Below are positions 16,429-19,604 of a stretch of 64,000 nt of DNA, one piece after another. The stretch is from a virus. The stretch covers positions 85,095 to 149,094 of the IMG/VR virus record IMGVR_UViG_3300001460_000004. The stretch is one strand, 5' to 3'. The notes under the pieces are model-generated. The model did no database searches. It had not been told where the DNA came from and worked only from the letters and a program-made list of their open reading frames with translations. Position numbers and translations under genes: made by a program. The first letter of the stretch is position 1. Each line of letters begins with the position of its first letter.

Positions 16429-17628
16429 ATGTCACAAGATTTACTAGAAGGTCGTTGGGGCGAGACCAAAGAAGCATTGCTCGAAGGATTGCAAGGTCCA
16501 CGCCGCAATACTATGCAAGTTATTCTCGAGAATACAAAGCGTCACCTCAAAGAGAACGCTACAGCTGGTGCAACTGCATCGGGTAACATTGCTACACTAA
16601 ACCGTGTAATTCTACCAGTTATTCGACGTGTTATGCCAACTGTTATTGCTAACGAAATTGTTGGTGTTCAGCCAATGACTGGCCCAGTTGGTCAGATTCA
16701 CACATTGCGTGTGCGTTATGCAACTACAATGGCAGATTCAAGTGCAGCGGCAACATCAACTACTGCTGGAGACGAAGCACTTAGCCCATTTAAAATTGCT
16801 ACAGCTTACTCAGCTGGTACAGGTGCCACACAGTCAGCAGCTCAAGGGTATGCTGGTGCAACTACTTCACTTCTTGAAGGTAATGGCGGACGTAACATTA
16901 GTGTGCAAATCCTCAAGCAAGCAGTTGAAGCTCGTACACGTAAGTTGCAAGCTCGCTGGACATTTGAGGCAGCACAAGATGCCCAAGCAATGCACGGCAT
17001 TGATGTAGAAGCAGAAATCATGGCAGCACTTGCTCAAGAGATTACTGCTGAAATTGATCAAGAGATTCTACTTTCTCTTCGTTCACTAGCTCAAACTGAG
17101 TTTACATACAACCAAGCTACAGTATCAGGTTCTGCTACATTTGTTGGTGACGAGCATGCTGCTTTAGCTGTTCTAATCAACCGTGTTGCAAACTTGATTG
17201 CACAGCGTACACGGCGCGGTGCAGGTAACTGGGCTGTTGTATCACCAGCATCACTAACAGTTCTACAAAGTGCTACAACTTCAGCATTTGCACGTACAAC
17301 TGAAGGTACATTTGAAGCACCAACAAACACTAAGTTTGTAGGTACATTAAATGGCGCAATGCGTGTATTTGTTGATTCATATGCATCAGATAGTACTCCA
17401 GTACTAGTTGGTTATAAAGGTTCTAGTGAAGCAGACGCAGCAGCGTTTTACTGCCCATACATCCCGTTGATGTCAAGTGGAACAGTACTAGATCCATCAA
17501 CATTCGAGCCAGTAGTTAGCTTTATGACTCGCTACGGTTATATCGAATTGTCAAACACAGCGTCATCATTTGGTAACGCTGGTGACTACGTTGGTGAGAT
17601 TGCTGTAAGCAACTTGAGCTTCTCGTAA
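16429..17628 (+). CDS. 23: gp23 major capsid protein
   Basis: The 399-residue protein has the HK97 fold hallmarks of T4-like gp23: ATLNRVILPVIRRVMP near residue 55 (the start of mature gp23 in relatives), GPVGQIHTLRVRY near 87, an EAEIMAALAQEITAEID helix and a C-terminal FMTRYGYIELSN. It is shorter than T4 gp23 (521 residues), mainly through a reduced insertion region. A gp21 cleavage site of L-x-E type could be LKE followed by NA near residue 36-38. AAAGGAGACAG supplies the ribosome binding site, and a strong terminator follows. Confidence 0.97.
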   Translation: MSQDLLEGRWGETKEALLEGLQGPRRNTMQVILENTKRHLKENATAGATASGNIATLNRVILPVIRRVMPTVIANEIVGVQPMTGPVGQIHTLRVRYATTMADSSAAATSTTAGDEALSPFKIATAYSAGTGATQSAAQGYAGATTSLLEGNGGRNISVQILKQAVEARTRKLQARWTFEAAQDAQAMHGIDVEAEIMAALAQEITAEIDQEILLSLRSLAQTEFTYNQATVSGSATFVGDEHAALAVLINRVANLIAQRTRRGAGNWAVVSPASLTVLQSATTSAFARTTEGTFEAPTNTKFVGTLNGAMRVFVDSYASDSTPVLVGYKGSSEADAAAFYCPYIPLMSSGTVLDPSTFEPVVSFMTRYGYIELSNTASSFGNAGDYVGEIAVSNLSFS

Positions 17629-17648
17629 GCACAACGTTTTATAATACT

Positions 17649-17673
17649 AAAAAGGGGCTACGGCCCCTTTTTT
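17649..17673 (+). terminator. rho-independent terminator after gp23
   Basis: AAAAA, then GGGGC-TACG-GCCCC, then TTTTTT: a 5-bp all-GC stem with tetraloop, extended by A-T pairs. It ends the head transcript 20 nt after the gp23 stop codon. Confidence 0.92.
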
Positions 17674-17707
17674 CTTGGATTTTTTTAATTTTTTGCCAGA
17701 AAAAGGT

Positions 17708-17736
17708 TGACCTTTAGTAATATAAGTGTTATATTA
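17708..17736 (+). promoter_or_regulatory. sigma-70-type promoter of a candidate ncRNA
   Basis: TTGACC (17708-17713), exactly 17 nt, TATATT (17731-17736), located after the gp23 terminator. The predicted start is near 17743. No protein-coding gene begins until 18148. Confidence 0.7.
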
Positions 17737-17742
17737 AGTGTA

Positions 17743-18067
17743 TAGCAAAGACGACGGTCTGAGTTAGATGGTGACTGAAGCGATATCGGGGAACGGTATC
17801 AAAGTACTACTTAAAGGGTCTTAGCGGGCTGTGTTTAGCGACTGCAAGTAGGTTCAGGGTTTATAGCACGAGTTCTCTTGTGCCCTGTTGGAGGTAATAA
17901 GTAAGTCCTCCCCATCATTATTAAATTGTGTTTTTTAAAATACACACCAGAGTATATGCACATGCTTTCCCGTGCATGGGACAAGAGCCGAAGGGTAACA
18001 AGTGAGTGTGTATTTTTAAAAACAGATTAGGGTAAAAGAGTAGGTATTAAGTTATCTACTCTTTTTT
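17743..18067 (+). ncRNA. candidate structured noncoding RNA, about 325 nt
   Basis: It lies between its own promoter and its own terminator. There is no ORF above about 18 codons and no ribosome binding site. The 5' half is G+C-richer than its surroundings (45-48% by hand count of two lines). Hairpins: GATATCG-GGGAA-CGGTATC (17782-17800); CAGGG, a bulge, then CACGAG-TTCT-CTTGTG-CCC (17855-17887); GGAGG-loop-CCTCC (17890-17911); and AAAATACACAC (17937-17947) with GTGTGTATTTT (18006-18016), enclosing ATGCAC/GTGCAT. The ACACAC strand can instead pair with TGTGT just upstream, so two exclusive folds are possible. No tRNA T-loop or tmRNA tag is seen. Function unknown. Confidence 0.6.
18034..18067 (+). 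terminator. rho-independent terminator of the candidate ncRNA
   Basis: AAAAGAGTAG and CTACTCTTTT form a perfect 10-bp stem around a 12-nt loop, ending in a run of six T (18062-18067). Confidence 0.8.
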
Positions 18068-18081
18068 CGTTTAAATAACTC

Positions 18082-18129
18082 TATAACACTTTCTGTGTTA
18101 TATTTTGTGAGCGACGGGGTAAAGCCGTC
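18082..18129 (+). promoter_or_regulatory. two-hairpin leader of the Cys-rich peptide gene
   Basis: TATAACAC-TTTCT-GTGTTATA (18082-18102, perfect 8-bp stem) is followed by GACGG-GGTAAAG-CCGTC (18113-18129). AAAGGAGA at about 18136 is then free to bind ribosomes. This could be an operator or leader structure; no clear promoter is assigned. Confidence 0.45.
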
Positions 18130-18147
18130 AAGCAAAAGGAGAATATC

Positions 18148-18315
18148 ATGAAGATAATGGACATACTAGATAAGAAATACACTGAGAAAGGTACATGGAT
18201 CAAAGATGGTGTACTAATGTGTAGTAAAAAATGTTGTGGAGTACCAGTTAAAGAATGTTCCTGTGGCCCCGAGTGTAAACATTGTCAATGCTATAAACTT
18301 AATAAGGAGAAATAA
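18148..18315 (+). CDS. Cys-rich small protein, putative metal binding
   Basis: A 55-codon gene with a good ribosome binding site (AAAGGAGA, about 5 nt before ATG). The N-terminal half is a charged helix (MDILDKKYTEKG). The C-terminal half has eight cysteines and a histidine between residues 25 and 48, including CSKKCC, ECSCGPEC and KHCQC, a pattern suited to binding zinc or an Fe-S centre. Another gene follows 3 nt after the stop, so it is the first of a three-gene run ending in the PiT-like transporter. The family is not recognised. Confidence 0.7.
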   Translation: MKIMDILDKKYTEKGTWIKDGVLMCSKKCCGVPVKECSCGPECKHCQCYKLNKEK

Positions 18316-18318
18316 AAA

Positions 18319-18528
18319 ATGGAAATGTTTATATTAGTATTAAGTATGTGGGGCAAAACAGCCTCAGACGAATGGATGTACATTGGCAACCAATATGTAT
18401 ACAATACTCCTATGACACAAGAACAATGTGAAAATATAATTAACCCAAGTTCGTGGTCGTTCCATGGAACAAATGAATACTACAAGGTACAGTTAGAGTG
18501 TATGCCACAAGGTAGCGAATTAAAATAG
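18319..18528 (+). CDS. small hypothetical protein
   Basis: A 69-residue protein with a short hydrophobic N-terminus (MEMFILVLSMWG) that could be a weak export or membrane-associated segment. It has two cysteines (in EQCENI and LECMPQ) and a pattern WMYIGNQYVYNT...MTQEQC. Small exported proteins with paired Cys and MTxEQC motifs occur in marine bacteria and their phages, but I cannot name the family. AAGGAGAAATAAAAA gives a plausible ribosome binding site. It sits 9 nt before the transporter, which has its own GGAGAAG, implying co-expression. Confidence 0.6.
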   Translation: MEMFILVLSMWGKTASDEWMYIGNQYVYNTPMTQEQCENIINPSSWSFHGTNEYYKVQLECMPQGSELK

Positions 18529-18537
18529 GAGAAGTAT

Positions 18538-19509
18538 ATGGACGCACTCACTCTATGGAGCCTTGTTGGGTTCCTGCTTGCTGCATATGCGGTTATAGCA
18601 AACGATTCAGTACAAACTCTCGGTACATGGATGGCATCAAACAATGAGAGATTCAACTACAAAACACTGTGGATTGCGGCATCCTCTGTCCTATTAGCCA
18701 CACTATGGTATGGCTGGACTGTAAATGGTGGTGACATCAGTTACGGTAGACTTAATAAGATTCCGTGGCAAGAAGTGCAATGGTATCATGCAGCCGCACC
18801 TGCTATATTAGTAGCATTAACTAGAATGGGTGTGCCTGTATCAACTAGTTTCTTAGTACTAAGTGTATTTGCAAGTACATTTGTATTAGAGAAAATGCTT
18901 ATGAAATCGATTATGGGCTACGGTGTTGCAGCCGCATTTGCATATGCAATATGGTTTGCAATACACAAATACTTTGGCAAGTGGTATGATGAAACCGCTC
19001 CTGTTACTGAAAGCAACAAAAAGTTTTGGCGCATCGCACAGTGGGTAGCCACAGGCGGATTGTGGTGGACTTGGCTGTCACATGACATGGCTAACATTGC
19101 AGTGTTCCTTCCACGTGAAGTGCCTATAGACTTAATGGTACTTGTGTCTGTTGTATTCGTAGCAGGCTTGTTCTTTATGTTTAGAGAACGAGGAGGTAAG
19201 ATACAGCAGATTGTATTAGAAAAACACAACACACGATATGTGCGTAGTGCTACACTAATTGATTTGTTCTATTGGCTATGCTTGTATTTCTTTAAAGAGT
19301 TAAATGATATACCTATGTCAACAACTTGGGTATTTGTTGGTTTACTTGCAGGACGTGAACTTGCAATGGCTACTTACTTTGGTAAAAAGAAAACCAGAAG
19401 TGTGTTTCCATTAGTAGCCAAAGACTTTGGTAAGATGATGGTAGGCTTAGGTGCTTCGGTTGCATTAGTTTTAGCAATTCATTATATTATTGTACCAAGT
19501 GGACTTTAA
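18538..19509 (+). CDS. PiT-like (PHO4 family) phosphate transporter
   Basis: The 323-residue membrane protein has about 9-10 hydrophobic segments. It shows the inverted-repeat signatures of inorganic phosphate permeases in degenerate form: IANDSVQTLGT (20-30) and SHDMANIAVFLPR (181-193) for the GANDVANA motifs, and MGVPVSTSF (97-105) and IPMSTTW (258-264) for the paired G-x-P-V/M-S-T motifs. PiT proteins carry phosphate with Na+ or H+. If functional it would be an auxiliary metabolic gene raising phosphate uptake during infection, as pstS does in cyanophages. It lies directly behind the ncRNA and the Cys-rich gene. Divergence leaves the transported ion uncertain. Confidence 0.72.
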   Translation: MDALTLWSLVGFLLAAYAVIANDSVQTLGTWMASNNERFNYKTLWIAASSVLLATLWYGWTVNGGDISYGRLNKIPWQEVQWYHAAAPAILVALTRMGVPVSTSFLVLSVFASTFVLEKMLMKSIMGYGVAAAFAYAIWFAIHKYFGKWYDETAPVTESNKKFWRIAQWVATGGLWWTWLSHDMANIAVFLPREVPIDLMVLVSVVFVAGLFFMFRERGGKIQQIVLEKHNTRYVRSATLIDLFYWLCLYFFKELNDIPMSTTWVFVGLLAGRELAMATYFGKKKTRSVFPLVAKDFGKMMVGLGASVALVLAIHYIIVPSGL

Positions 19510-19515
19510 AATAAA

Positions 19516-19523
19516 GATAAATA
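19516..19523 (+). promoter_or_regulatory. late promoter core GATAAATA
   Basis: GATAAATA, 81 nt before the structural gene at 19605. A GTAGG-loop-CCTAC hairpin lies between it and AAAGGAGAAATCAA. Confidence 0.55.
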
Positions 19524-19604
19524 GACATACACAAAATGTGTTTATGGGAACACCATCTCGTAGTAGGCTAGAACCTACATTGGACTTCTTAAAGGAGAAA
19601 TCAA

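Follow-up and report, generated by a model that had tools for sequence, protein, structure and literature searches.

We found that the segment downstream of gp23 in the analysed 64,000-nt stretch of DNA (hereafter the window, part of a 230,036-base IMG/VR virus record) is best explained as an autonomous phage RNA gene, namely a trans-acting RNA with a manA-type core that is carried as an accessory cassette after gp23. We assign this reading a probability of roughly 0.7. At the level of sequence, its signals, homology, covariation and presence independent of the downstream genes are all established.

The gp23 gene of the window (16429-17628; Pfam Gp23 match 1.4e-97) shares ~66% identity with gp23 from jumbo T4-like phages, PA5oct among them. 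The RNA segment lies between the intrinsic terminator of gp23 (17649-17672, plus strand) and a series of small genes. This terminator follows the gp23 stop (17628), precedes the RNA promoter and sets the unit apart from gp23. The promoter is of the sigma-70 type with an extended TG (TTGACC-17-TATATT, 10 of 12 matches; 17707-17735, plus strand), and the unit has its own intrinsic terminator (18034-18065, plus strand), in which 13 pairs are followed by a T run (-14.9 kcal/mol). The initial annotation had described a promoter and a terminator framing about 325 nt devoid of ORFs. This description holds: there is no plus-strand ORF of at least 40 aa from gp23 to 18148, and the sole ORF within the segment (49 aa, TTG start) is on the minus strand. 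The strong stems and the raised G+C of the 5' half, also reported there, were borne out as well. The predicted fold of 17742-18067 has an energy of -99.6 kcal/mol (z = -4.5), which none of 100 shuffles equalled; the minus strand of the same segment has z = -2.3. The G+C content of the 5' half is 0.46-0.49 versus 0.27-0.38 in the intergenic flanks, and does not exceed that of gp23.

Judged by its sequence, the core of the unit (17743-17922, plus strand) is a divergent manA RNA. With permissive settings (601 nt searched), the first 175 nt aligned to the whole manA model RF01745 (positions 1-192) with 39.0 bits and E=1.4e-8. This score is below the gathering cut-off of the model (55.2 bits), as are those of the relatives (24.9-53.2 bits). 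At gathering cut-offs Rfam called nothing in the segment, freshwater-2 (see below) being the only match. A search of the window's own record with RF01745 likewise came up empty, no candidates having emerged at its first look. Weak matches to GibS, SraG, L20_leader and other families (E 0.02-3.3) were taken as chance. The homology is reciprocal: R1, a covariance model trained on eight window-subgroup sequences, recovered canonical manA RNAs of P-SSM2 (1.5e-8), P-SSM7 (6e-8) and metaG-MbCM1 (7.7e-6), a second manA-like subtype (E down to 1.2e-12) and further divergent manA-type RNAs (L084, L135, L093, L111 and L157; E from 2e-16 to 6e-7). The window core scores 185.8 bits with R1, being one of its training sequences. 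In gp23 relatives lacking the RNA, R1 gave nothing under E=0.3 (first match, E=0.31). The regions of P-HM1, S-TIM4, S-SSM5, P-TIM68 and P-RSM6 gave no R1 match at E=1 or better, and their manA copies were identified by blastn with a marine copy (L081). In blastn against phage records, the window RNA produced short partial matches only and the group A RNA (defined below) none. The divergent RNAs detected by R1, together with L137, have other neighbours, and several of them possess TAGC-type 5' hairpins.

Homologues were collected by scanning IMG/VR viral contigs with two conserved motifs at manA spacing, which yielded 82 stretches. Two of these (L089 and L125) match the window almost exactly, and many others represent canonical marine manA. 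The close relatives of the window RNA comprise groups A (L086, L101 and others), B (L105 and others) and C (L103, L156, L085 and L099). Eleven pattern matches without P1/P5 pairing (e.g. L128, L131 and L146) were discarded on visual inspection, being judged coding or fortuitous. Because the motifs served to choose the homologues, motif conservation carries no independent weight, unlike covariation and flanking signals. The loci around group A gp23 genes contained a previously undescribed subtype with a GUGCAAGGAA core, which we labeled type II (29.7-53.2 bits with RF01745). No RNA was found by blastn or profile in the gp23 relatives L001-L080, or by R1 in the capsid-gene regions of PA5oct and Vibrio phage 2.275.

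The proposed structure of the core (all elements on the plus strand) begins with a 5' hairpin, P0 (17743-17766), which has a GACG loop (GAC-GACG-GUC). P1 (17767-17771/17912-17916) closes the core, and the remaining helices are P2 (17782-17787/17795-17800), P3 (17807-17812/17846-17851), P3a (17817-17820/17827-17830), P4 (17855-17859/17883-17887), P4b (17867-17872/17877-17882) and P5 (17890-17894/17907-17911). Both manA motifs are present, GUGACUGAA beside P1 (17771-17779) and GGUAAUAAGUAA in the P5 hairpin (17893-17904). The former and the GGUA and AGUAA of the latter are invariant in the aligned type I homologues, themselves found via these motifs. Compensatory changes support the predicted fold. 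Within the window subgroup, 19 of the 44 hand-assigned pairs (93.4% paired) changed on both sides, compared with a shuffled mean of 12.6 and with 1-4 in slid controls; for P0 in the relatives this applies to 6 of 10 pairs. The structure of the second subtype, obtained with RNAalifold independently of that of the window subgroup, has both sides changed in 26 of 40 pairs (shuffled mean 15.9; slid controls 6-13). None of the 500 shuffles was as high as the observed covariation. P0, P1 and P5 are common to both subtypes, and both P1 and P5 covary. The check suggested by the initial annotation, Rfam and covariation in homologous loci, has produced both a full-length RF01745 match and compensated pairs.

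Downstream of the core, the window RNA has an extra 3' hairpin domain (17927-18031, plus strand; -31.3 kcal/mol), a long A/U-rich stem in which AAAATACACAC (17937) pairs with GTGTGTATTTT (18006). It had been proposed that AAAATACACAC may pair either upstream or downstream, giving two mutually exclusive folds. The complementarity is real and both pairings exist in the sequence, yet the competing local hairpin is worth -3.3 kcal/mol against -31.3 kcal/mol for the long-range domain, a gap of ~28 kcal/mol. Pair probabilities at equilibrium are 0.79-1.0 for the long-range pairs and 0 for the local ones. Therefore, a balanced switch is not supported thermodynamically. In addition, the exact inner sequence of the domain is confined, outside the window, to two near-identical contigs (L089 and L125), which makes covariation impossible for this part, and the other relatives do without the domain. 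We consider a two-state switch in the 3' half highly improbable.

The flanking signals were compared in 45 non-redundant homologues with available flanks, counting promoters with at least 10 of 12 matches within 100 nt upstream and terminators within 130 nt downstream. A promoter was present in 33 of the 45 homologues versus 9 of 400 random positions, a terminator in 21 versus 23 of 400, and both together in 16 versus 0 of 400. The terminator of the window falls outside the 130-nt limit because of the extra 3' domain. Other T4-like phages also have the promoter-RNA-terminator cassette downstream of gp23, and cargo may come before it, after it or be absent. The RNA is present in 18 of the 48 group A gp23 loci that have at least 1 kb downstream. 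Those RNA-less loci that were examined also lack the promoter (L247 is one possible exception), so the promoter, RNA and terminator are gained or lost together. Type II RNAs are located 103-1013 nt after gp23, a distance that varies because cargo may sit on either side of the RNA.

The gene that follows the RNA differs as well. In the window three small ORFs follow, and in group A an ORF of 134 aa; group B and type II have an MGRP gene preceded by its freshwater-2 leader, and group C (L103/L156) has a convergent gene. The same probably applies to phage P-TIM68, in which the next annotated gene after manA is a convergent hypothetical one. tRNA genes may be close, with tRNA-Gly 9 nt after the RNA in L283 and tRNA-Leu before it in L085/L099. 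We also observed a tmRNA match in L121 (1-174; 28 bits, below the cut-off and ended by the contig edge) starting 14 nt after a manA-type RNA. In L103 and L156, the manA-type RNA has a same-strand neighbour ~0.5 kb away, a permuted tmRNA of the alphaproteobacterial type (10357-10658 in L103; tag ANDNFAPSELRLAA).

These data bear on the possibility that the segment is a manA riboswitch or attenuator, whose core senses a ligand and decides on terminator read-through into the genes behind it (the three small ORFs in the window, MGRP in relatives). In Weinberg 2010 (PMC2864571), cis regulation by manA was rated certain and a switch probable, and manA was proposed as a candidate riboswitch, which counts against an autonomous gene. 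Moreover, the terminator comes after the fold, most of the next genes are on the strand of the RNA, and a promoter just upstream fits a leader RNA equally well. However, the downstream genes are unrelated among relatives and may be absent or convergent, they have their own late-promoter-like boxes past the terminator, and cargo may precede the RNA. Complementarity between the terminator arm and the RNA, as expected of an antiterminator, did not rise above shuffles in 18 homologues, nor did these reveal a mutually exclusive fold tied to an expression platform; a simple complementarity test of this kind would miss long-range or ligand-dependent terminator control. Since downstream genes vary, some being convergent, and antiterminator complementarity was not found, we prefer the autonomous RNA gene and regard a switch in a 5' UTR as unlikely. 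Of the earlier proposals, the autonomous noncoding RNA is well supported by its own promoter and terminator, its non-coding nature, covariation and presence regardless of the neighbouring gene. The switch or attenuator fared poorly, given relatives that lack the 3' domain and have other or no downstream genes.

The same considerations argue against regulation of the putative transporter gene suggested in the initial annotation. Immediately past the terminator, TTTAAATA (18070-18077, plus strand), one mismatch away from TATAAATA, is a putative T4-late-promoter-like box of the next genes, and relatives have equivalent GATAAATA boxes behind the terminator. The genes next to the window RNA could not be assigned to any Pfam or PHROG family. 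The 'PiT-like' protein (18538-19509, predicted to be membrane-like) has an ANDSVQTLGT stretch resembling the PiT signature; it had no Pfam, PHROG, phage or plasmid match, and neither Pfam, PHROGs nor tblastn confirmed the label. Farther downstream, the freshwater-2 RNA (RF02980; 19525-19607, 58.9 bits, above the cut-off) constitutes the leader of the MGRP gene (19605) and is itself preceded by a GATAAATA late-promoter box (19516-19523). Such leaders precede MGRP genes in many relatives, and weaker matches are found at positions 202018 and 219930 of G000. The entire gp23-to-MGRP slot (17629-19604 in the window; also L001-L080) is a variable cargo site, as close gp23 relatives carry quite different genes in it.

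Canonical manA occupies a similar position in known cyanophages. It lies downstream of the capsid gene at a distance of ~70-90 nt in P-HM1, S-TIM4, P-RSM4, S-SSM5, metaG-MbCM1 (capsid gene annotated as gp24 precursor) and MED4-213, some of which are closely related to each other. The unit has other locations too: after pstS in the mutually related P-SSM3, P-SSM4 and P-RSM3, after ferredoxin and regA, before gp32 in P-HM2, before the purL/hsp20 segment in P-SSM2, before carbamoyltransferase in P-SSM7 and before transaldolase in P-RSM6. In most known-phage copies the TTGACA..TATAAT promoter overlaps the terminator tail of the preceding gene. The recurrence after gp23 in many phages, including these six, might suggest a 3' end or insulator of the capsid operon, in which a highly stable fold would serve to end or protect gp23 mRNA and to insulate the sequence behind it. 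Nevertheless, gp23 has its own terminator ahead of the RNA promoter, and the unit also occurs at the other locations listed above, near tRNA/tmRNA genes and up to 1 kb from gp23, making such a role quite improbable. Many canonical manA RNAs, lacking a separate terminator hairpin, lie 50-61 nt upstream of gp32. This is where a 5'-UTR element would be, which counts against an autonomous gene, and for gp32-type copies a cis reading is possible. The 2010 description puts weight on 5' UTRs (PMC2864571), and copies are found here elsewhere; therefore, the manA family is mixed in context.

If the segment is an autonomous RNA gene, the host-type sigma-70 promoter would drive a ~325-nt transcript ending at 18065, at the intrinsic terminator. 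Its first 180 nt would fold into the 5' hairpin, P1 closing a multi-branched core, and P5 with the GGUA...AGUAA loop, followed by the extra 3' hairpin domain. Transcription would be early, by host RNA polymerase, ahead of the late programme, and the structured RNA would act in trans. Most likely, it would bind a conserved partner, a protein or RNA of host or phage, via the single-stranded GUGACUGAA and GGUA..AGUAA motifs. As an accessory cassette, the RNA would occupy the variable slot that follows gp23. Since 2010, manA has stood as an orphan riboswitch candidate. A self-contained unit, gained and lost next to gp23 and near tRNA/tmRNA genes, points to a trans-acting RNA instead of ligand control of the next gene. 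Extending this to all manA RNAs, as a phage-specific, promoter-driven, trans-acting RNA gene that is not a riboswitch, has at least two subtypes and follows gp23 in phages of cyanobacteria and other bacteria, is more tentative, and we place it somewhat short of even odds. An exact-motif scan of ~85,000 species genomes for cellular copies returned 61 stretches, of which only two passed the P1/P5 pairing filter, neither of them convincing. Therefore, manA-type RNA may be a phage tool used on hosts.

Several known or related RNAs can be compared with that of the window. The T4 stable RNAs C and D are likewise phage-encoded and located near tRNA genes; their function is unknown, and we treat the likeness as a lead only. 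Freshwater-2 is also a structured RNA of the gp23-MGRP slot, but it belongs to an unrelated family and serves as the 5' leader of the MGRP gene. The type II RNA, detected by both RF01745 and R1, shares the promoter, 5' hairpin, P1, P5, terminator and slot with the window RNA, whereas GUGCAAGGAA replaces GUGACUGAA, the internal helices are different and the RNA is ~30 nt longer. Compared with manA RF01745, the window RNA scores under the curated cut-off, has other internal helices, its own terminator and an extra 3' domain, and lies outside the 5' UTRs of genes for mannose, nucleotide or other metabolism or for photosynthesis, the terminator intervening. In contrast, alignment along the full 192-nt model, GUGACUGAA and GGUA...AGUAA, P1, P5, the phage setting and a promoter close upstream are all shared with manA, canonical members of which follow gp23 in six cyanophage genomes.
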